Shown here piece after piece: positions 52,972 through 64,000 of a stretch of DNA of 64,000 nucleotides (position 1 is the first letter of the stretch; every line of letters begins with the position of its first letter). Position numbers and translations under genes: made by a program. This DNA comes from Mucilaginibacter sp. 14171R-50 (lineage in GTDB: Bacteria > Bacteroidota > Bacteroidia > Sphingobacteriales > Sphingobacteriaceae). The DNA is taken from the NCBI RefSeq assembly GCF_010093045.1, contig NZ_CP048115.1, forward strand, positions 2,108,001-2,172,000. The letters are read 5' to 3'. The notes beneath the pieces are model-generated. The model was not told the DNA's origin. It did not search any database and worked only from the letters and a program-made list of their open reading frames with translations.

Positions 52972-55845
52972 TTATAAAGGTAATTCGAAATAAAAGGTGC
53001 TGCCGTGGCCCAGCTCGCTTTCGGCCCAAATCCTGCCGTTGTGCTGCTTAACAATTTCTGCACTTACATACAGCCCTATACCAAAGCCGGCTATATGCTG
53101 CGTATCGGCCGAATCCACCCGGTAATAGCGATCGAATATTTTTTCGAGGTCATCTAACCGCATGCCCATGCCTTTATCTTTAACGCTAACCATAACATAT
53201 TCGCCCTTAAGGGTACAGGATACATCGATATCTGTATGCTTAGGGGAATATTTTACAGCATTGCTGAGCAGATTTGACAGAACTGAGCCGATCTTGTTGC
53301 GATCTGCAACTATTTCAATCTCATTGCATGCTGCCAGTTTTATGGCGTGGGCATTGGTTGTTAATTGCACTTCATCTATCATTTCCCTGATCAGGTTGTC
53401 GAAATTAAACCGTTGTTTTTCAACGATCATTTTCCCCGACTCCAGGCGCGAGATATTAAGAAAGCCGTTGATCAGGTCGGTCATTCGCTTTACCTGCAGA
53501 TTGGCTTTTTCCATGGCGCCCTTCAGGAATGGGTCTGGCGAGTGCCTGAGCTTGGCGTTAGCCACCTGGATAATGGCGTTTAACGATGTTAATGGGGTTT
53601 TTAGTTCGTGGCTGGCCATGCCGATAAAGCCATCCTTCTGGCGCTGCACTTTTTTACCGGCTTCCAGTTCCTCTTCGAGCCTGTTCTTCGTGGTGAGCAG
53701 TTCTTTTTCGCTCTCTTCTATACGCTGGCGGGCAACTACCTGCTCGGTTACATCAATAGTGATGGCGATAATGCCGATAATGAAGCCCTCTGAGTTTTTG
53801 AACGGTTCATATACAAAATTTTGATACACCACATCTTCTTTTCCGTTGCGCAACAATGTAACCGGCATTTCGCTGGTGGTAAAAGCCACACCGGTATTGT
53901 ATACCGCCGCCATCACTTCCTCAAGCCCCTGGTTGCGCGCGTCGGGCAGGGCTTCAAACACGGGGCGGTTCAAAACATTTTCAATACGCTTGCCCCACAG
54001 TTCTACCATCAGCCTGTTGGCCACTTTAATTACATGCTCGGGCCCTACAAGTATACACATGGCAACCGGTGCCTGCAATATCATCTCGTTAAGGTTCTTC
54101 TCGTTGCGTTCTACCGCATGTTTGGCAACGTTCAGGTCGGTTACATCAGCGGCGGTGTTCATTACGCCGTACACATTGCCGGCGGCATCAAACAGCGGTG
54201 TAAAGCTGTAGTTGAAATAGTAAATTTGTTGTTCGCCATCAACAAGTATATCCACCCGCTGGTTGCGGGCATGGAAAGGCTCACCGGTTTTAAATACTGT
54301 ATCGAGCTGCGAAAATATTTCCTGGTTTTCAAGTTCCGGAAGTATCTCTTTATATGATCTTCCAATCACATCGTTGCCCTTTCCCCATACATCGATGATG
54401 TTTTGATTGGCAAGTAGTATCTTCATGTCGGCCCCGATGTAAACACCTATCGGGAACGGAGCGCTTTCTACCACACTGCGAAGCCGGCTTTCGCTTTCTT
54501 CGAAGTTCGCTATCATTTCGCGCAGGTTTAGTTGCGTTAAATTCAGCTCTTCGTTTGTTGTGCCCAGTTCTTCGTTCATGGCAGCCAGTTCTTCGTTAAG
54601 CGATTGTTGCTCGCCGTAGCTTACCTCAAGTGCCTTACGTGCACTCACCTGGCTGGTAATGTCTTCAGCTGCCACTATTACTCCGGTAACCACGCCATCT
54701 TCACCGGTTATCGGGTCGTAGTAAAAGCTTACGTATTTCAGCTGCTCCTGGTTATCTATGGTTAAACGAAGCGCTTCCTCCTGTTGCCCGTAAGGCTTAC
54801 CTGTACGCATTACATTGCGCAGCAGTTCGGGGAACGGCTGGTCGCTTAGTTCGGGAAGTATATCCAATAATTTACGGCCCGTGATCTCAGGTAACGATTT
54901 GTTCCATAAGGCCGCTAATTGCTGATTGGCGATCTCAACAACGAAATCGGGCCCCTGAAGGATCATCAGGGCGTAATGGGCGGTCATGATAAGCGTACGG
55001 AGGCTGCGCTCGCTTTGCTGCACCTGCTCGCGGGCGTATACCATGTCTGTAACTTCTATAACAAATACCATCACCCCATCGATGATGTCGTGGTCATTGG
55101 TGCGTGGCTGATATATAAAATTAAAATAGCGGTCTTCTATGGGGCTATCGGGCGTGCGGCGCAGCGGAACCAGCAATTCTTTGCCTTCAAACATGCGCCC
55201 TGTTTGGTACACATCCTGCAGAATGCCCGATATCTCCTGCCCCTTTAATTCCGGTAATGCATCCAGCAGGGGCCTGCCTAATAAGTGGCGGCCGGGAAAT
55301 AGCTGCTGGTAAAGCGGGTTTATAAATTCAAATACAAACTCAGGGCCATCCAGCACACATATACCCGCGGGCATTTGCATAAAAAACTGTGATAGGCGCT
55401 CCCTTTCTTTTTCAGCCTGTTTACGTGCCAGCAATAGCTCCTGCTCATAGCGTTTACGGTCGGTGTTATCAGTTAAGATACAATCAACCGCCAATAATTG
55501 TCCGTCATCATCTTTAACCGATACTGCCCCCAAAAGCACATGCACTATTTCTCCGGTCCGGGTTAGCAATTCGTAGCTTAGTTCTTTAACGCTGCCGCTT
55601 AAGTTTAGCATCGGCCGGAAAAACATTTCGTAATGTACCTGCCCGCCTTTTGAAAGCAGTTCGCTAAACTTCATTTTGCCGGTTACTTCTTCGGCAGTGT
55701 AGCCCAGCCAATTTAAAAGGGTGTGATTGATCCTGATGATCGTACCATTCGCCGTAAAGGTAACATAACCGCAGGGTGCCTGATGGTATAGACGCCCCGG
55801 GTCCATCGCTGCTTTAAGAAGGTTGTCTTTAAATTCGTCGCTCAT
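52972..55845 (-). CDS. Multi-PAS sensor histidine kinase (partner of RsbQ-like hydrolase)
   Basis: The 957-residue product has about five PAS domains with no membrane segment. The first one, with APCGYVTFTANGTIIRINHTLLNWLGY (from about residue 24), is of the RsbP type; the others repeat the pattern VMLQGPDFVVEIAN / VFEALPD. A coiled coil follows (near residue 400). HisKA is at the end with H746 in GMASHELKTPL, and HATPase has NLLSNAVKYSP, DKGMGM and GFGIGLYVS. The gene starts 9 bases after the hydrolase stop, so the two should be made as a pair. No response regulator is linked directly. Confidence 0.92.
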   Translation of the reverse strand: MSDEFKDNLLKAAMDPGRLYHQAPCGYVTFTANGTIIRINHTLLNWLGYTAEEVTGKMKFSELLSKGGQVHYEMFFRPMLNLSGSVKELSYELLTRTGEIVHVLLGAVSVKDDDGQLLAVDCILTDNTDRKRYEQELLLARKQAEKERERLSQFFMQMPAGICVLDGPEFVFEFINPLYQQLFPGRHLLGRPLLDALPELKGQEISGILQDVYQTGRMFEGKELLVPLRRTPDSPIEDRYFNFIYQPRTNDHDIIDGVMVFVIEVTDMVYAREQVQQSERSLRTLIMTAHYALMILQGPDFVVEIANQQLAALWNKSLPEITGRKLLDILPELSDQPFPELLRNVMRTGKPYGQQEEALRLTIDNQEQLKYVSFYYDPITGEDGVVTGVIVAAEDITSQVSARKALEVSYGEQQSLNEELAAMNEELGTTNEELNLTQLNLREMIANFEESESRLRSVVESAPFPIGVYIGADMKILLANQNIIDVWGKGNDVIGRSYKEILPELENQEIFSQLDTVFKTGEPFHARNQRVDILVDGEQQIYYFNYSFTPLFDAAGNVYGVMNTAADVTDLNVAKHAVERNEKNLNEMILQAPVAMCILVGPEHVIKVANRLMVELWGKRIENVLNRPVFEALPDARNQGLEEVMAAVYNTGVAFTTSEMPVTLLRNGKEDVVYQNFVYEPFKNSEGFIIGIIAITIDVTEQVVARQRIEESEKELLTTKNRLEEELEAGKKVQRQKDGFIGMASHELKTPLTSLNAIIQVANAKLRHSPDPFLKGAMEKANLQVKRMTDLINGFLNISRLESGKMIVEKQRFNFDNLIREMIDEVQLTTNAHAIKLAACNEIEIVADRNKIGSVLSNLLSNAVKYSPKHTDIDVSCTLKGEYVMVSVKDKGMGMRLDDLEKIFDRYYRVDSADTQHIAGFGIGLYVSAEIVKQHNGRIWAESELGHGSTFYFELPL

Positions 55846-55854
55846 TAATGCCTG

Positions 55855-56646
55855 CTATATAAAAGCTTTAATAGCTTTGATTGTCTCCTGTGGTTCGCTG
55901 ATATGAGGGCAATGACCTGTTGCGTTTAGCATAACAAACTCGTTGCCGGGTGTGTGGGTTTTCACAAATTCGCCAACAGCCACAGGCGCAATGATATCAT
56001 CGCTGCACTGCAGGGTGAGGCTTTTAACGCCCAGTTTGGTCAGGTCGTCCCGGTTATCAGAAAAAAATGTTACCCGTGCAAATTCCCGGGCAACCTCCGG
56101 ATCGGTAGCGCAAAAACTACTGGTTAAAAAAGCACCCAACTCCGGGCGGTCGGCGTTGCCCATAATGGCCGGCGCCATAGTGCTTGACCACCCGAGGTAA
56201 TTACTCTCCATAAAATCGAACAGGCTCTCCATGTCCGAACGTTCAAAACCGCCCGTGTAATCCTGGTCGTTAAGGTACCGGGGCGATGGCCCTATAAAAA
56301 TGAGTTTTTTAAAATAAGCAGGTTGTTGCACGGCTGCCAGTAAGCCGATCATAGAGCTGACCGAATGCCCTACGAAGATAACGTCCTGTAAAGAAAGGGC
56401 CTCGCAAACGTCAAGCACATCTTGTGCGTACCCGTCAAGGCTGCCGTATTTTGCGGAGCTGTACTGACTTAGGTCGGATTGCCCGGAACCAACATAGTCG
56501 AAAAGCACTACCCGGTAGTCGTCTGAAAAGGCATCTACAACAAATTGCCATGACCGCTGATCGCAGCCAAAACCGTGTGCAAACAGCATAACTTGCTGGC
56601 CGTTCCCGATAATATTAACATTGTTGCGTTTAAGAATAGAACTCAT
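55855..56646 (-). CDS. rsbQ: RsbQ-like alpha/beta hydrolase
   Basis: The 263-residue product closely follows RsbQ of Bacillus: FVGHSVSSMIG with nucleophile S95, IGPSPRYLND, TDPEVAREFARVTFFSDNRDDL, LQCSDDIIAP with D217 and GHCPHISEP with H245. RsbQ acts with the PAS phosphatase RsbP in energy-stress sensing, probably by producing a small hydrophobic ligand; plant relatives are KAI2 and D14. Here the PAS partner is a histidine kinase instead of a phosphatase. It is cytosolic and leads the two-gene operon. Confidence 0.93.
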   Translation of the reverse strand: MSSILKRNNVNIIGNGQQVMLFAHGFGCDQRSWQFVVDAFSDDYRVVLFDYVGSGQSDLSQYSSAKYGSLDGYAQDVLDVCEALSLQDVIFVGHSVSSMIGLLAAVQQPAYFKKLIFIGPSPRYLNDQDYTGGFERSDMESLFDFMESNYLGWSSTMAPAIMGNADRPELGAFLTSSFCATDPEVAREFARVTFFSDNRDDLTKLGVKSLTLQCSDDIIAPVAVGEFVKTHTPGNEFVMLNATGHCPHISEPQETIKAIKAFI

Positions 56647-56811: not shown

Positions 56812-57465
56812 TTATATTTTGATCAGATCGTTTTTTAAGGCGGATATAACCAGGCCTGTTCTTGATTTTACCTCAAATTTTTGAAACAGCGCCTCGCGGT
56901 AATTGTCGATGGTGTGAGGGCTAAGGTTCATCATGTCGGCAATTTGCTTATAGGTAAGGTCAGAGCAGCACAGCTCTAAAAATTTAAGCTCGTTTTGGTT
57001 AAGGCCAACAGGGGCGTTTTTAAGCGGCTGATTGTTTTGGATGTTGCGTAGTAATTTTCCCGACACAAGCTCGTTGATATAAAAAGATTGCGCGGCTATC
57101 CCTTTTATTGCGTTCACCAGGTCGGCAGCTTTTGATTGCTTTAGCATATACCCCCCTGCACCGCTTTTAAGCATGCCTATTATTGGTGTGTCTTCTTCAA
57201 ACATGCTTAAGGCAAGCACGCTTATGCCCGGGTGGTTTGCTTTCAGCCATTTTGTGCTCTCGTAGCCATTCATTACCGGCATGGTAATATCCATTAATAT
57301 AACATCCGGCAGGGGGTAAGCCGGCAGTTTTTTGATCATATCGGCACCGTTATCAGCGTCAAACAAAACGTTTATCTCGTTAGATTCGGTTAGCAGGCGT
57401 GCCAGCCCCTGGCGAAATAAGGTGTGATCGTCTACAATGGCAATATTTACTTTGTCGGTTTGCAT
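56812..57465 (-). CDS. NarL/LuxR-type response regulator
   Basis: The 217-residue product has a receiver domain (IVDDHTLFRQGLARLL with the acidic pair and phospho-acceptor D59 in DVILMDITMPVMNG, and lysine in YMLKQSKAAD) and a LuxR helix-turn-helix at about residues 150-210 (LNQNELKFLELCCSDLTYKQIADMMNLSPHTIDNYREALFQKF). It follows the sensor kinase gene by 3 bases, so it is the output of that four-gene unit. Confidence 0.95.
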   Translation of the reverse strand: MQTDKVNIAIVDDHTLFRQGLARLLTESNEINVLFDADNGADMIKKLPAYPLPDVILMDITMPVMNGYESTKWLKANHPGISVLALSMFEEDTPIIGMLKSGAGGYMLKQSKAADLVNAIKGIAAQSFYINELVSGKLLRNIQNNQPLKNAPVGLNQNELKFLELCCSDLTYKQIADMMNLSPHTIDNYREALFQKFEVKSRTGLVISALKNDLIKI

Positions 57466-57468
57466 CAG

Positions 57469-58257
57469 CTATTGGTAAGGCACTTTTACGGTTATGGCAG
57501 TTCCGTTATTTTTTGTGGAAACAATTGAAGCTGTGCCATTTATCATGGCGCTTCTTTTCTTAATATTATAAAGGCCCATGCCGTCCTTCCGCTCAGATAT
57601 TTTATCCACATCAAATCCAACGCCGTTATCGCGTACGGTGAGCAGTAAGTCATCGTTAACCGCTTCTAAATTAATAAATATCGCTGTTGCTTTTGCATGC
57701 TGAATAATATTATTTATGATTTCCTGAAACAGCCTGAAAAGGATCATATCTTTAGCACTATCGCGCGTAAATGGGATATTATTGTGCTCAAAGGTGATCG
57801 TAAACCTGTCTGACCGTTTTAGCCATTCCAGCTCAAATTCAATCGCTGCCGGCAATCCCTTACTGATAATTTCCTCGGCATGCAGCAGGCGCGATAACGC
57901 TTTTACTTCCTTTATCGATCGCAGGGTGAGGTCTTCAACCAAAGCTAATTTTTCGGCGGTGTTTTGCTGATCGGTAAGATTAACCGAGCTTAGTGTGATT
58001 GTGGTAAGGCTAAGTAACTGGCCGATATTATCATGCAGGTCGTAGGCAACGGTTTTAAGGGTTTGTTCCTGCACCTCCATCTGGGTTTTAAGCAGCTCAT
58101 TCTCGAAGTTTTTTTGCAAAGTAACGGTTTCCTCCTGGTGCTTCTTCTTCCGCCGGTTGTACGATAATACGTACAAAATAAGAAACAGGGGCGCTATCAG
58201 GAATATAATAGATGTTAACCCTATCAGGGAGATGATTTCCTTTGACGATATCTGCAT
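57469..58257 (-). CDS. HPK7-type sensor histidine kinase
   Basis: The 262-residue product has one membrane helix (IISLIGLTSIIFLIAPLFLILYVLSY), a coiled linker, the HPK7 H-box with H75 in AYDLHDNIGQLLSL and an ATPase domain ending KKRSAMINGTASIVS. There is no periplasmic sensing loop to speak of, so the signal probably comes from the partner membrane protein upstream. The start at 58257 lies within the last 34 bases of that gene. A start at 58275 is possible but adds a short N-terminal extension. Confidence 0.9.
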   Translation of the reverse strand: MQISSKEIISLIGLTSIIFLIAPLFLILYVLSYNRRKKKHQEETVTLQKNFENELLKTQMEVQEQTLKTVAYDLHDNIGQLLSLTTITLSSVNLTDQQNTAEKLALVEDLTLRSIKEVKALSRLLHAEEIISKGLPAAIEFELEWLKRSDRFTITFEHNNIPFTRDSAKDMILFRLFQEIINNIIQHAKATAIFINLEAVNDDLLLTVRDNGVGFDVDKISERKDGMGLYNIKKRSAMINGTASIVSTKNNGTAITVKVPYQ

Positions 58258-58880
58258 ATAAAAGCGTATGACCAAAAAAGATACATAATAATATCCAATA
58301 CGTTAAATATAATATACCTGATAGACCTGCTGAAGGTAATGTTCTCGTAATGCGATAGGTAATCTAAAAAATTATTGCACGCTGTGCTTCCAAAATAAAA
58401 AAACAGCGTGCCGCTTACCCACCAAAAAGGCGCCGAGAAAAGCAGCGGCTCAAAACGCTCATCGCGCAGTTTCAGGTAGTAAAAATACAAGCAGGCCAAT
58501 ACAAAAACTACCGACATTACTGATGCCGTGGTTGATACAAACTGGCTAAAATGATGATAAAGCAGATCGGTTACATACATCACCGTAAAAAGGCATAACC
58601 ATGTAACCAGCCATATAACTTTATAATTATAGGCCTTGTATAGGTGAAAGAAAAAATAACTTGTAAAGCCGCATTCAAACAATAAGTATACGTTGTATAT
58701 CTGATAATTTGATACACCCACAAATTCCCTTATATATATGCCTGCAACCTCTACCGAGCAGGTTAACAGCAAAAACGGAATAAATAGCTTCCAGGCCAGG
58801 GTCTTTTCCCGGTAAAGGAAAATAACGGCGGCCAGGAAGCAAAAAAACTCTGATGCGGTATTAATAGTGATGAAGATCAT
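58224..58880 (-). CDS. Seven-helix membrane protein, candidate sensor
   Basis: The 218-residue product has about seven hydrophobic segments with short loops (for example LFIPFLLLTCSVEVAGIYI, VIWLVTWLCLFTVMYVTDLLY and YIIFNVLDIIMYLFWSYAFICRY). It has no recognisable catalytic domain. It overlaps the kinase gene by 34 bases, which suggests tight coupling. A role as the signal-receiving subunit of the kinase is inference. Confidence 0.75.
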   Translation of the reverse strand: MIFITINTASEFFCFLAAVIFLYREKTLAWKLFIPFLLLTCSVEVAGIYIREFVGVSNYQIYNVYLLFECGFTSYFFFHLYKAYNYKVIWLVTWLCLFTVMYVTDLLYHHFSQFVSTTASVMSVVFVLACLYFYYLKLRDERFEPLLFSAPFWWVSGTLFFYFGSTACNNFLDYLSHYENITFSRSIRYIIFNVLDIIMYLFWSYAFICRYRQRKSSP

Positions 58881-58885
58881 TACAA

Positions 58886-59476
58886 TTAGGGAAGGAGCGT
58901 AGCGCCTGTTTCACTGCATTTTACCGGCGGCGGGCAAAGCTCGCCACGGTTCTCTGGTGTGCCGCCTACCATAAAACCTAATACAGGTTTATTTGATTTT
59001 GCCGGTTTGCTGGTGTAATAATCGCGGTGAAACTTTTGGTTTACTGCGTTTGTACTGTCTTTGGTTGATACCAATACCAGGGTATTGTAGCCCCAATAAT
59101 CGCGCGGGGGCACAATGCCGCCAATAATCTTACTGTTGTACGATGTATCATAACTGGCCATGTAAAAGCGGATCCCGTCGCCGCCTTCACTTTTGATCTT
59201 ATCAAGCAAGGCCTGTAAGCGATCGGCACTAAACCAAATACAGCGCGAGTTTGGTTTCTTTTTTATTTTCCCCACACCTTTTTCAACATACTGCGAATCT
59301 ACCCAACCGGCGTGTTTTTCGTAGTTATTTACATAAGCTTTAGCCCTTTCGTAGCTAAGGCTATCATAATTAAACTGCGACGCTTTTGAACTGGTAAGGT
59401 CGGCGTGTTGATTTTGGCAGGCGCTAAAAGCAAGCGTTGCTAAAACTGCATACAATAATGGCTTTTTGAATTGCAT
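58886..59476 (-). CDS. Hypothetical lipoprotein
   Basis: The 196-residue product has a lipobox (TLAFSAC) and an otherwise unrecognised alpha/beta domain with KPNSRCIWFSADRLQALLDKIKSEGGDGIRFYMASYD, ending GELCPPPVKCSETG with three cysteines near the end. It is 5 bases before the seven-helix gene and is the first gene of the lipoprotein / membrane protein / kinase / regulator unit, so it may deliver or bind the signal. The family is not known to me. Confidence 0.7.
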   Translation of the reverse strand: MQFKKPLLYAVLATLAFSACQNQHADLTSSKASQFNYDSLSYERAKAYVNNYEKHAGWVDSQYVEKGVGKIKKKPNSRCIWFSADRLQALLDKIKSEGGDGIRFYMASYDTSYNSKIIGGIVPPRDYWGYNTLVLVSTKDSTNAVNQKFHRDYYTSKPAKSNKPVLGFMVGGTPENRGELCPPPVKCSETGATLLP

Positions 59477-59773
59477 AATAGTTTGGGATTAAGGTTTACC
59501 GAAAGTGACCATTTAAACACAGATATACAAATTAATGCCTTGCCTTTTTTCCACCTTAACAGGAGTTAAAAAAAGCTATTTTCACCCTATAGCAATTACA
59601 TTTTATAATAGAGCTTTGTAAAGCAAACGTTGTGACAGCGATATGTGCAGAGTTATTTAAAGAGCGGCCTAAACGTTTTAAAGAAAAAATTATTGCGAAT
59701 TAATTAAATATTTTATATTTACAGTCTAATTAATAAAAGTATAAACAATATCTAAACCTTATCACTTTAAACT

Positions 59774-60316
59774 ATGGAACCTTATTTAGGAGAAATTAAA
59801 ATTTTTGCGGGCAGCTTTGCACCCAGCGGTTGGTTTTTTTGCGATGGCACCACTCTTGCCATCAGTCAGTACAGCGCTTTATTTTCCTTATTAGGTACAA
59901 CCTACGGGGGCGATGGCATGCAAACCTTTAACTTGCCGGATCTTCGCGGCCGTACACCTATCCACGCGGGCAACGGGCAGGGCAGGGGCGTATCAAAGTA
60001 TGTGCAAGGGCAAATAGGCGGTGTCGAAAATGTTACTTTAACAGTGCAGCAAATGCCGGCGCACACGCACGTAATTAACGCCGTATCTACCGACGGGACG
60101 GCGTTGACACCAACAGGGGCATATCCGGCTACAAGCCCGGGCGATCCGCTTACAGGCGCGGGTGTAAATATTTACTCCACAGCAACACCCGATGTAACCA
60201 TGAATAATGGTACGTTAACACCTGCAGGTGGCAGCCAGCCGGTAAACGTAGTAACGCCATATTTAGGTATAAATTACATCATAGCCTGGCAGGGTATTTA
60301 TCCTTCGAGACCATAA
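59774..60316 (+). CDS. Tail-collar domain (microcystin-dependent-like) protein
   Basis: The 180-residue product has the phage tail collar signature: YLGEIKIFAGSFAPSGWFFCDGTTLAISQYSALFSLLGTTYGGDGMQTFNLPDLRGRTPIH at the start and the ending YLGINYIIAWQGIYPSR, with a HTH-containing middle QQMPAHTHVINA. In Bacteroidota such genes occur outside phages with unknown function. No signal peptide is seen. No other phage genes are nearby. The AT-rich 297-base spacer 59477-59773 upstream holds no gene and probably carries its promoter. Confidence 0.88.
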   Translation: MEPYLGEIKIFAGSFAPSGWFFCDGTTLAISQYSALFSLLGTTYGGDGMQTFNLPDLRGRTPIHAGNGQGRGVSKYVQGQIGGVENVTLTVQQMPAHTHVINAVSTDGTALTPTGAYPATSPGDPLTGAGVNIYSTATPDVTMNNGTLTPAGGSQPVNVVTPYLGINYIIAWQGIYPSRP

Positions 60317-60355
60317 TATCAAGAATATTTAGTTAATGGATTTTTTTGAGCGCCA

Positions 60356-61276
60356 ATGAAAGTTGGCATCGTATCAAACTCAAAAATATGCTTGCCCCTG
60401 CTTTCGTACCTAAGCAGTATAAAAGCAGGGGTTATGCTATACTTCGGCAGTTCGTTGCCTGGTGATGTCAGCGTAAACGAAATGGCCGGCTTTTGCCGAA
60501 AGAACAACATACCGTTTTATGCCGAGGTGGATAAAAAGGAACTGTACAGCTGGCAGCAAATAAATGAACCGGATGTGATATTCATCTCCGGGTATGCGCA
60601 TAAAATAGCTGTTAAAGAACTGAGCGGTGTGCCAAAGGGAATGTTTAACATACACTTCGGCCGGCTACCGCATTACAGGGGGCCTTCGCCGGTTTTTTGG
60701 CAGTTAAAAAACGGCGAGGCACAATTGGGATTAGCCATACACCAATTAACCGATAAGCTGGATAGCGGGGCGGTTGTTTGGGAGCAAAATATTAAAAACG
60801 AGGAATACCATACCTACAGTTATATAAACCAGGCGTTTAGCCAGCTACAGGTGCAGGGAGTATCGCAAATACTTACTACACTATACAACAGGCAAACGAT
60901 AACCTATAAGATACAAGCCGAAACCGAAGCCCGCTATTACAAAAAGCCGCAGCTGGCTGATGTAATGATAAACTGGGACACAATGGATGCGAAAGGGATA
61001 CTTAACCTGATAAAAGCCTGCACAGCCTGGAACAACGGTGCAAGCGCTTTAATAAACGGTTACGAACTGAAGATTTTAGATGCCGAAGCCGCTTCAACAG
61101 AAGCCGATAACATACCCGGAACCATTACGATAGCAAATAACAAGTTTACTGTAGCCTGCATTAATAAGCAGGCTTTAAACATAAACTATTTTAATATAAA
61201 CAACACTTGTATACCGGCCCGGCATGCAGGTTTTTATGGTTTAAAAACTGGGCAAAAATTTATTAACAAAATTTAA
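60356..61276 (+). CDS. Methionyl-tRNA-formyltransferase-like protein (paralogue)
   Basis: The 306-residue product has the formyltransferase fold: N98 and H100 in MFNIHFGRLPHYRG and D136 in KLDSGAVVW form the N-H-D catalytic triad, and the C-terminal part has the Fmt_C pattern INWDTMDAKGILNLIKACTAWNNGAS. The N-terminal sequence is not that of housekeeping Fmt (MRIVFMGTPEFA type), so it is a paralogue that may formylate an amino sugar or another amine. It starts 40 bases after the tail-collar gene and 41 bases before a giant surface protein. Confidence 0.8.
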   Translation: MKVGIVSNSKICLPLLSYLSSIKAGVMLYFGSSLPGDVSVNEMAGFCRKNNIPFYAEVDKKELYSWQQINEPDVIFISGYAHKIAVKELSGVPKGMFNIHFGRLPHYRGPSPVFWQLKNGEAQLGLAIHQLTDKLDSGAVVWEQNIKNEEYHTYSYINQAFSQLQVQGVSQILTTLYNRQTITYKIQAETEARYYKKPQLADVMINWDTMDAKGILNLIKACTAWNNGASALINGYELKILDAEAASTEADNIPGTITIANNKFTVACINKQALNINYFNINNTCIPARHAGFYGLKTGQKFINKI

Positions 61277-61317
61277 TCGGTTTAACCGGCAAAAAACTGA
61301 ACGTTTAAAATTTTATT

Positions 61318-64000
61318 ATGAACAAACTTTTACCCCAGTTGAAGCAATCTTTAAAGACGAGAAAGTTCTCGATCTCGATGGCATTAATGCTGTTTATTTC
61401 GCTGATTGCCACCAATGTTAGTAAAGCACAGATATATTACGTTACCAATGATGCCGCGCCCACCAGTACAGCCAGCGGTGACGCTATTGTACGTATGGGC
61501 TACGATGGATCTAGCGCTACCGTACTTGCGTCAAGCATCACTAACTCGCCCAATTTATTGCAGATAGACTATGCAAATAACAGGGCTTTTGTTTATGAAG
61601 GATATCAGCCTGATCCTATACCGAACCCTAATAATTTGGCAATTAAGGTTATAAACTTAACTAACGGAACAGTGATCAGGTCAATACCTTTAGCGGTATT
61701 GGGGCGAGCGACATCACTTAAGTACGACCCGGTAAACGATTATATATATTATGTAACAGGAGATCCGTTAAGTGCAGACGCCGCTAACGCAACATCTAAC
61801 GACGCGCTGATAAGGGTAAAACCTGATGGAACTGGATCGACAATATTAGCTTCCGGATTTTGTAAAAACCCGGCCTTTTTAGCGCTTAATATAGCGAATA
61901 ACGAAATATATATTTATCAAAACTTATACGCCGACCCACGAATTTACGTGCGAAACCTCTCTGGCGGCGCTGTTCGTGACTTTGGCACTACTAAACCGGC
62001 AGCGCCTTATATAGGTGTAGACATGGCTTATGATAATATTAATAATTATATTTATTACTTAACGAGTGATAATAGTGACGCCGTTTCCCCTAAAGACGCC
62101 CTTAAACGCATTAATATTGATGGTACCGGCGAAACTACTATTGCATCAAGTATTGGTGGTGGCTTAGCATACGCTATGACTGTTGATCCGGGACACAATA
62201 AAGCCTATTTTTTTGACAAAGCAACCGGAGCTAACCGTGGTATTAACTCGGTTGATTTAACCACCGGTAGCGTATCGTTAGTTAACTCCATAGCTTCACC
62301 TACACTCATTCCGGGACTTGCGGTTGCAAATCTGCCCGTTATTACCACCACCGGCATTTCAAGTTACTCGGGCTTTTCGGCTACAATGGGTGGTAGCGTA
62401 ACACGCAGCGACGCAAGCGTTACAGAACGTGGCGTAGTTTACAGCAGTACTAACACTGTACCAACTATAGGCGCAAGCGGGGTTACCAAAGCTGCTAATG
62501 GTACCGGTACCGGCAGTTTTTCTGCAAGCGTATCTGGCCTTAGCGCTGCAACAACGTACTATGTAAGGGCTTACGCTACCAGCGGTGCCGGTACTGCTTA
62601 TGGCGGCGTTAACTCATTTACAACATTTTCCAATGATGCTACGCTTTCCGGCCTTAGCACCAGCGCGGGTACATTAACCCCTGCCTTTTCAAGCGCTACT
62701 GTTTCATACACGGCTTCGGTATCCAACGCTACTTCAACAATTACGGTAACGCCTGCAAAAACCGATGCCAATGCATCAATAAAAGTTAATGGTACGTCTG
62801 TAAGCTCTGGTTCGGCATCGGGCGCTATCAGTTTAAATGTTGGTGACAATGTGATAACCACAGTAGTAACCGCAGCAGATGGTGCTACAACTAAAACGTA
62901 CACTATAACCGTAACCCGTGCTAAAGCAGCGCAAACCATCACATTTGCATCTGCAGCTTCCAAAACCTATGGCGATGCTGATTTTGCACCCGGCGCTACG
63001 GCCAGCAGCGGTTTAACCGTTAGCTACAGCAGCGATAATGCGGCGGTGGCAACCATAGTAAGCGGGCAGATACACATTGTAGGGCAGGGCACGGCCAATA
63101 TAACCGCCTCGCAAGGCGGCGATGGAAGCTATTTACCTGCCACAAATGCGGTACAAACGCTTACCGTTAACAAATCAGCGGTTACGGTTACTGCCAATGC
63201 AGGCCAAACAAAAGTTTACGGTAATGCCGACCCAACATATGCGTACACAGTTACTTCGGGTACGGTTAAAAGCGGCGATAGCTTTAGCGGCACTTTAAGC
63301 CGTACAGCCGGCGAAAACGTGGGAGCCTATCCCATTACACAAGGAACCCTTGCGCTGAGCAATAATTATACGTTAACCTTTGTTAGCAACGATTTTGCTA
63401 TTACCAAGCGTGCTATTACTATAACACCTACTACACAAACCAAGGTATACGGTAATGCGGATCCTGCATCGTTTACTTATACCATAGGTGGTTTGGGACT
63501 GGCTAACGGCGATGGGATGACGGGCCTTTTCGAAAGGCCGGCCGGCGAAAATGTCGGAGTTTATACCCTGGGGATAGGTGCCAAGCACCCCGTTAATGTA
63601 AATAACGGAGCCGACCAGAGCGCTAATTATGATATTACCTTTGTAAGCAACACCTTAACTATTACCAAAAGGCCGTTAACCATTGCTCCGCTTCCGGTAA
63701 CAAAAGTTTATGGCCAGTCAGATTTCGCCGTCGGTGCACCTTACGCCCTAAACGGCACATCTGTTGCCCCGGGAGAAGGTATGACCGGCAGATTTGGCAG
63801 AGATAATACTTCTGAAAATGTGGGTGTTTATGCTTTAACATTAGGTAGCAAACACCCGGTTGATGTTAATACCGGGGAGGATAGATCTTCTAATTATGAC
63901 ATCTCTTTTATATCTAATACCTTTACCATCACCGCTAAATCATTAGCCGTTAATGTCTATTCCCAAACAAAGACATACGGCGATGCTGACCCTACGCTTA
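61318..64000 (+). CDS. Large secreted repeat protein with propeller, Ig-like and MBG domains (runs off right edge)
   Basis: The frame is open from the ATG at 61318 to the window end, at least 894 codons. It has a signal peptide (MALMLFISLIATNVSKAQ). A beta-propeller-like region with repeats of the type YDPVNDYIYYVTGD / IKVI-L fills about residues 40-340. An Fn3-like segment follows (ITTTGISSYSGFSATMGGSV...FYV-AYATSG), then a cadherin-like sandwich (NDATLSGLSTSAGTLTPAF), an Ig/BIG domain and several MBG repeats (KVYGNADPTYAYTVTSG, KVYGNADPASFTY, KTYGDADPTL). The C terminus, possibly a secretion-sorting domain, is outside. An adhesin role is likely. Confidence 0.9.
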   Translation, partial: MNKLLPQLKQSLKTRKFSISMALMLFISLIATNVSKAQIYYVTNDAAPTSTASGDAIVRMGYDGSSATVLASSITNSPNLLQIDYANNRAFVYEGYQPDPIPNPNNLAIKVINLTNGTVIRSIPLAVLGRATSLKYDPVNDYIYYVTGDPLSADAANATSNDALIRVKPDGTGSTILASGFCKNPAFLALNIANNEIYIYQNLYADPRIYVRNLSGGAVRDFGTTKPAAPYIGVDMAYDNINNYIYYLTSDNSDAVSPKDALKRINIDGTGETTIASSIGGGLAYAMTVDPGHNKAYFFDKATGANRGINSVDLTTGSVSLVNSIASPTLIPGLAVANLPVITTTGISSYSGFSATMGGSVTRSDASVTERGVVYSSTNTVPTIGASGVTKAANGTGTGSFSASVSGLSAATTYYVRAYATSGAGTAYGGVNSFTTFSNDATLSGLSTSAGTLTPAFSSATVSYTASVSNATSTITVTPAKTDANASIKVNGTSVSSGSASGAISLNVGDNVITTVVTAADGATTKTYTITVTRAKAAQTITFASAASKTYGDADFAPGATASSGLTVSYSSDNAAVATIVSGQIHIVGQGTANITASQGGDGSYLPATNAVQTLTVNKSAVTVTANAGQTKVYGNADPTYAYTVTSGTVKSGDSFSGTLSRTAGENVGAYPITQGTLALSNNYTLTFVSNDFAITKRAITITPTTQTKVYGNADPASFTYTIGGLGLANGDGMTGLFERPAGENVGVYTLGIGAKHPVNVNNGADQSANYDITFVSNTLTITKRPLTIAPLPVTKVYGQSDFAVGAPYALNGTSVAPGEGMTGRFGRDNTSENVGVYALTLGSKHPVDVNTGEDRSSNYDISFISNTFTITAKSLAVNVYSQTKTYGDADPTL

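Follow-up and report, generated by a model that had tools for sequence, protein, structure and literature searches.

How does a histidine kinase with almost no sensor region of its own come to perceive a signal? This question is raised by a four-gene operon of Mucilaginibacter sp. 14171R-50 (Bacteroidota; Bacteroidia), located in a stretch of 64,000 nucleotides (contig NZ_CP048115.1, positions 2,108,001 to 2,172,000; hereafter the window, in whose numbering positions are given). The operon encodes a predicted lipoprotein, a seven-helix membrane protein (7TM), a HisKA_3 (HPK7) histidine kinase and a NarL/LuxR-type response regulator. A preliminary description of the sequence had proposed a split sensor in which envelope parts feed a bare kinase, that is, one without a sensor domain. 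Our analysis indicates that the operon probably encodes one signalling unit with its sensor divided over separate polypeptides, and this grading includes the whole mechanism proposed below. The 7TM protein is very likely an obligate sensory or regulatory subunit, and the lipoprotein, termed the partner protein in the following, is with more reserve likely to belong to the sensor. The earlier proposal stands for the second gene, a near-obligate neighbour of the bare kinase. It does not stand as worded for the first gene, which adjoins the 7TM gene but is not always an envelope part, since about half of its counterparts lack a signal peptide.

Should the 7TM protein supply the sensor that bare kinases lack, kinases that carry their own would be expected to occur without it. 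The survey built on this prediction comprised 29 near-complete genomes of the class, picked for few contigs, 21 of them with a prior 7TM match and eight without. It used 150 of 154 HisKA_3 matches and 78 of 79 7TM matches (the second fragment of one gene was excluded), and a 7TM match less than 700 base pairs (bp) upstream of a HisKA_3 match was taken as its neighbour. Among the matches listed, the 7TM gene lies directly upstream of 55 of 56 kinases with a reading frame below 330 amino acids (aa), of one of five with 330-499 aa and of none of the 89 with 500 aa or more. In the eight genomes without a 7TM match to narrower queries, all ten listed bare kinases have a 7TM gene. The window's genome contains three bare kinases, exactly those adjoining its three 7TM genes, and five longer HPK7-type matches without 7TM. 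As a near-rule suggested by these comparisons, HisKA_3 kinases that lack a sensor of their own appear to be accompanied by a separate seven-helix protein.

The operon and its associated elements are arranged as follows.
59543..59587, minus strand: conserved upstream element with two similar half-sites, a candidate regulator site or promoter element
58886..59476, minus strand: gene 1, predicted lipoprotein (partner protein), 196 aa, with a GDGIRFYxA domain and a C-terminal CPPPxxC tail
58916..58936, minus strand: codons for the C-terminal CPPPVKC motif of gene 1, residues 181-187 (derived coordinates)
58224..58880, minus strand: gene 2, seven-helix membrane protein (7TM), 218 aa, near-obligate neighbour of bare kinases
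57469..58257, minus strand: gene 3, bare HisKA_3 (HPK7) histidine kinase, 262 aa from ATG, with H75 as predicted phospho-acceptor
58180..58236, minus strand: codons for the single transmembrane (TM) helix of the kinase predicted by hydropathy, residues 8-26 (derived coordinates)
56812..57465, minus strand: gene 4, NarL/LuxR-type response regulator, 217 aa, with D59 as predicted phospho-acceptor

The four minus-strand genes run from 59476 to 56812 as originally described, with a gap of 5 bp between gene 1 and the 7TM gene, an overlap of 34 bp between the 7TM and the kinase gene (ATG start) and a gap of 3 bp between the kinase and the regulator gene. An alternative TTG start at 58275 would give a kinase of 268 aa. 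The ATG at 58257 (MQISSKE..., 262 aa) is more likely because ten relatives carry the same in-frame MQIS start; the ten nearest named loci are all from Mucilaginibacter. No match to a defence system was obtained when the four operon proteins and two neighbours were scanned with PADLOC. Among titles and abstract openings of the open-licence literature no description of the module was found, and it may be described elsewhere.

The gene order is widely conserved. With the 7TM protein as query, matches were found in 27 of 60 genomes, the window's genome included. The order 7TM-kinase-regulator occurs in all 30 loci around the best 7TM matches, among them the window locus and another copy elsewhere in its genome (genome position 1138611), and the arrangement is therefore not due to chance. 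In each of these 30 loci an upstream open reading frame (ORF) overlaps the 7TM gene or ends at most 46 bp away, and 27 of these ORFs bear a CPx1-5C tail. The idea of a split sensor depends on the first two genes being kept together with that of the kinase; this was looked for across relatives and found. Within the class, a profile built from the 30 7TM proteins detects the family in 86 of 395 genomes, representing 53 of 196 genera; across the phylum it matches 40 of 296 genomes, six of them outside the class. A broader profile from 111 proteins reaches at least 123 of 395 genomes and at least 73 of 196 genera; these are lower bounds, as at most seven candidates were scored per genome. Throughout loci L001-L140, 135 of 150 7TM genes have a kinase gene directly behind them on the same strand, 126 also a regulator gene, and 123 overlap the kinase gene when its first possible start is used. 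The 150 genes include the refetched loci L031, L032, L040, L062 and part of L108, which are left out of the tail and TM counts, trees, distance correlations and overlap counts given elsewhere in this text. Among unique 7TM-kinase pairs, 117 of 129 overlap when the kinase is taken from its earliest possible start, and 87 of 129 when it is taken from the last ATG within the first 20 codons. No fused 7TM-kinase ORF was present in the fetched loci. Two or three tandem 7TM genes stand in L055, L087, L103, L115, L122 and L129, and might form hetero-oligomeric receptors.

The kinase matches HATPase_c (2.8e-15) and HisKA_3 (9.1e-7) above the curated Pfam cut-offs and has all of the H, N, G1 and G2 boxes, which places it in the HPK7 (HisKA_3) class. 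Its lone predicted helix precedes the dimerisation domain, and neither hydropathy nor profiles indicate a sensor domain, as the preliminary description had held. A single predicted TM helix is typical of bare kinases (121 of 128, by hydropathy). Intramembrane-sensing kinases are defined by a pair of TM helices that only a very short linker outside the cytoplasm connects; with one predicted TM helix the window kinase does not belong to this class, but it may work like its members. The best NCBIfam model is LiaS, at 99.5 of the 450 bits required and so far under the cut-off, and a sequence search against solved structures yielded VraS (5e-14) and, for the HisKA_3 catalytic core, DesK (2.1e-10). 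The regulator contains Response_reg and GerE domains above cut-off with the phospho-acceptor aspartate in place and is thus a member of the NarL/LuxR (GerE) family.

In agreement with the preliminary description, the two proteins encoded ahead of the kinase belong to no Pfam or NCBIfam family above cut-off. An AlphaFold2 model of the 7TM protein contains seven helices (residues 2-24, 28-54, 59-82, 88-108, 115-139, 150-178 and 187-216) at a modest mean predicted local distance difference test (pLDDT) score of 65.2. Judged by the distribution of charges and by the modelled helices, the N-terminus would lie outside and the C-terminus (CRYRQRK) inside. Superposition with VIA-align gave a Z of 14.2 with a designed G protein-coupled receptor (GPCR)-like fold (root mean square deviation (rmsd) 3.6, 199 aligned residues) and 13.4 with the GABA(B) receptor (rmsd 3.9, 205 aligned), in both cases over nearly the full length. 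At a pLDDT of 65 such Z values are near the level reached by unrelated helical bundles, and a GPCR- or rhodopsin-like fold is suggestive only. Microbial rhodopsins bind retinal through a lysine within the seventh helix. Since the sole lysine of predicted helix 7, K215, sits at its cytoplasmic end, the 7TM protein does not group with them and a retinal pigment is unlikely. Sequences of solved structures contained nothing convincing for the 7TM protein or for either form of the partner.

The first gene of the operon encodes a lipoprotein by its lipobox AFSAC, whose Cys20 is invariant in 11 of 11 aligned rows and is predicted to be lipidated. The same 11 rows also keep C181, P182-P184 and C187 of the tail. 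The NCBIfam lipoprotein model PG1828 covers residues 7-28 only, corresponding to the signal peptide, with 15.9 of 50 bits. A structural model of the protein was discarded since its pLDDT of 39.8 is unusable. To pick the upstream protein of other loci, the longest ORF with its end close to the beginning of the 7TM gene was taken, and a few picks may be wrong for this reason. Their length is highly diverse, from 77 to 367 aa, and the window lipoprotein resembles its counterpart in the genome's other copy of the module (33%). Nevertheless, 106 of the 136 have a CPx1-5C motif within their last 100 residues, ending a median of 9 residues before the C-terminus; the motif occurs in 7 of 374 other ORFs (loci L061-L140) and in none of 128 kinases. 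Among 134 upstream proteins no Pfam family occurs in more than two members (best 9.3e-4), and the NCBIfam model PG1828 matches 17 (best 5.1e-7). By eye, upstream proteins of 272-350 aa in L011-L021 apparently contain the GIRxY domain twice, as a duplicated partner domain.

Hydropathy, computed on the longest possible ORFs, shows no hydrophobic stretch at the N-terminus of 73 of the 139 upstream proteins examined (a set still containing the refetched loci L062 and L108) and a signal-peptide-like one in 53. The two kinds appear to be related: the window lipoprotein resembles a 142-aa protein of L025 that has no signal peptide (E 5e-10 in that one comparison), and hhalign aligns it to a family of about 100-aa signal-peptide-less partners with a probability of 80.6% (E 1.3e-5). 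Going by these alignments, the lipoprotein is homologous to the partners that lack a signal peptide. When mapped onto the 7TM tree, the signal-peptide state of 104 labelled loci requires at least 19 changes, compared with a mean of 35 and a minimum of 26 after shuffling, and is therefore clustered but not fixed. As far as sequences tell, the partner protein is conserved but its compartment is not.

The small signal-peptide-less partners are also closely tied to the 7TM gene. The family gave 17 matches in 9 of 12 genomes, 16 of them directly preceding a 7TM gene. Eleven of the 17 had already been found via the 7TM protein and add no new evidence; among the remaining six, five stand before a 7TM gene (L181 in truncated form). 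Behind four of these five pairs (L181, L190, L191 and L196) no kinase is recognisable, and L192 has the usual one. Since such pairs are kept without the usual kinase, partner and 7TM together look like a receptor unit. The gene behind the 7TM gene in L190 (3-785, minus strand) encodes a protein with a receiver and an adenylate/guanylate cyclase domain (PF00072, PF00211), and those in L191 (171-884) and L196 (148-876), likewise on the minus strand, encode single-helix proteins without a Pfam match. In the latter two loci a small gene for roughly 150 aa stands ahead of the partner gene in the same orientation (L191: 1833-2279; L196: 1797-2255, both minus); one product has a weak HTH_3 match below cut-off (0.0011), the other none.

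For the 108 loci with all three proteins, patristic distances from FastTree approximations correlate with 0.73 for 7TM and kinase, 0.82 for kinase and regulator and 0.58 for 7TM and regulator. Given the kinase, the correlation between 7TM and regulator is -0.05 (bootstrap -0.18 to 0.07). Given the regulator, that between 7TM and kinase is 0.55 (0.49-0.61), a value reached in 0 of 500 permutations. These distances fit what a chain 7TM-kinase-regulator would predict.

The upstream element reads GGGTGAAAATAGCTTTTTT ... TTAAGGTGGAAAAAAGG in the window (59543-59587) and ends 66 bp before the ATG of the lipoprotein gene. It is recognisable in 11 Mucilaginibacter loci. The distance between its half-sites is 31 bp in the window, and counting in L147-L150 gave 33-34 bp. 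A search of the genome with up to three mismatches returned one occurrence, the operon's own site. This single occurrence and its position upstream of the operon fit autoregulation, with the operon's regulator as a candidate for binding the element.

From the observed gene order, the linkage of bare kinases and of partners to 7TM genes, the intact kinase and regulator motifs, the co-divergence and the conserved upstream element we infer a mechanism including physical contact, the side and nature of the signal, the sign of control and binding of the regulator to the element. The 7TM protein would sense or gate and would touch the single N-terminal helix of the kinase inside the membrane. A signal at the 7TM protein would shift the balance between autophosphorylation and phosphatase activity of the kinase. 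The partner, here a lipoprotein, would modulate the 7TM protein or present the signal to it. Finally, the kinase would phosphorylate the NarL-type regulator, which would act at least on the operon's own promoter.

Several observations weigh against this mechanism. A bare kinase in genome G346 (frame of 247 aa) has no 7TM gene, and 22 of the 78 7TM matches have no listed HisKA_3 kinase right behind them. Some of the latter are tandem copies and some have an unlisted kinase (L020, L137, L138), whereas L129 is truly kinase-less, as are, beyond the survey set, the 7TM genes of L126 and L134. One signal-peptide-less partner, in L195, does not adjoin a 7TM gene. With about half of the partners lacking an export signal, a mechanism located in the periplasm could be shared by all of them only if some other export route exists. 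Linkage and co-divergence are no proof of contact between 7TM and kinase. Genes inherited in one operon co-diverge anyway, and the trees are approximations. The model of the 7TM protein is of modest confidence, and its best Foldseek match is not significant (E 0.58), although many top rows are rhodopsins and GPCRs.

The strongest alternative, which we regard as improbable without being negligible, is that the kinase senses via its own short helix and the 7TM protein only restrains it, with the lipoprotein as a second brake in the way SaeP and SaeQ act on SaeS. In LiaFSR and VraTSR of Firmicutes, a membrane protein, an HPK7 kinase with minimal sensor and a NarL-type regulator are encoded in one operon. 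Kinase and regulator classes and gene order of the module are as in LiaF-LiaS-LiaR, and the window kinase is similar to the LiaS model, if below its cut-off, and to the solved VraS. However, LiaF is of another family, as the window 7TM protein is matched neither by LiaF nor by any other Pfam or NCBIfam model; LiaS has two TM helices, and a Cys-Pro-tailed partner is not known there. The module is therefore not a LiaFSR system. SaeS of SaePQRS belongs to a different kinase class from HisKA_3. LiaF is described as a negative regulator (PMC3543457). For SaePQRS of Staphylococcus aureus, PMC5083920 describes a lipoprotein, a membrane protein, a near-sensorless kinase and a regulator in one operon, in which SaePQ is dispensable for activation and required to induce the phosphatase activity of SaeS. 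According to the same paper, SaeQ has four predicted TM helices and SaeS a HAMP domain and two predicted TM helices joined by a nine-residue linker (PMC5083920). In contrast, the modelled 7TM protein has seven helices, and the window kinase is of the HisKA_3 class, lacks HAMP and has one helix with about 11 residues ahead; the operon is thus not a SaePQRS system either. Moreover, a brake is not needed beside every bare kinase, yet 55 of the 56 listed have a 7TM gene.

It is less probable still that the product of gene 1 is itself the signal, a ligand of the 7TM receptor recognised by its Cys-Pro tail, exported or presented and read out by kinase and regulator as in Agr or ComQXPA. The position of the partner mostly directly before the 7TM gene and the contrast between a variable body and a constant tail would agree with this, but the partner holds a conserved domain, about half of the loci lack an export signal and a processing enzyme was not recognised. 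We consider it very unlikely that 7TM protein and lipoprotein are targets, or transport or effector functions under two-component control, co-transcribed by convenience. The upstream element with its autoregulation-like features, the lack of an assigned receptor family and the existence of kinase-less 7TM genes speak for this possibility, which leaves unexplained why 7TM genes accompany sensorless and not long kinases (55 of 56 against 0 of 89, as listed) and why 7TM and kinase co-diverge beyond the regulator. The preliminary suggestion that the regulator also serves the multi-PAS kinase next door, so that operon and RsbQ module form one network, is hardly credible: the two lie 165 bp apart on the same strand in the window, but the neighbourhood is kept in none of the ten named relatives and the PAS kinase is of class HisKA instead of HisKA_3.

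The preferred reading, a receptor unit acting on a separate bare kinase, has further parallels. In the sensory rhodopsin-transducer pair SRII/HtrII a separate seven-helix receptor signals via the TM helices of a second protein. That receptor is a retinal light sensor and its output a chemotaxis transducer, whereas the only lysine in predicted helix 7 of the module's protein is K215 at the cytoplasmic end. In the 7TMR-DISM receptors the same bacteria likewise link seven helices to kinases, but fused in one chain; of the 21 PF07695 loci fetched, 9 show the kinase profile in the same ORF. Homology to 7TMR-DISM_7TM (PF07695) was ruled out, with an hhalign probability of 3.3% and no match to the window protein; 2 of 30 7TM relatives match the profile weakly (best 8.2e-4), and the window's genome contains no PF07695 protein. 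DesK shares the HisKA_3 catalytic core and membrane-driven sensing but carries its own multi-helix sensor, which in the module is a separate gene. The module would work like LiaFSR, SaePQRS and sensory rhodopsin-transducer pairs, belongs to none of them by the features tested, and is a new form among accessory-protein two-component systems.

The flanking genes differ in their conservation. On one side (52972-56646, minus strand) lies the gene of an RsbQ-like hydrolase, followed by that of the HisKA kinase with five PAS_4 stretches. On the other (59774-63999, plus strand), divergent genes encode a phage-tail-collar protein (PF07484), a formyltransferase-like protein (PF00551/PF02911) and a long MBG/cadherin-like protein running off the window. 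Collar, formyltransferase-like and MBG/cadherin-like (adhesin) genes lie beside the operon in 9, 8 and 9 of the ten Mucilaginibacter relatives, respectively. Loci L061-L140, with flanks of about 4 kb, yielded one formyltransferase-like match (L091) and no collar or adhesin gene; the flanks of L001-L060 are too short to judge. The divergent cluster is possibly a target of the regulator or a separate system. The former is disfavoured, as the conserved element sits by the operon promoter, and stays a lead.

A far-reaching extension, which we hold to be rather doubtful, is that GPCR-like receptors with seven helices, encoded as stand-alone proteins, make up a large unnamed family in Bacteroidota. 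Each would have its own small protein partner, with the constant Cys-Pro tail as ligand or tethered agonist, and would be plugged into a separate bare kinase or, in one case, a receiver-cyclase protein, receptor and enzyme being separate genes as in eukaryotic GPCR signalling. What the analysis itself means is that an odd single operon turns into a near-rule for a bacterial class. Two unassigned protein families thereby receive a likely role, and many receptor-kinase pairs become testable. Furthermore, the module would provide a model system in bacteria that allows mutations in the receptor independently of the kinase and the reverse.

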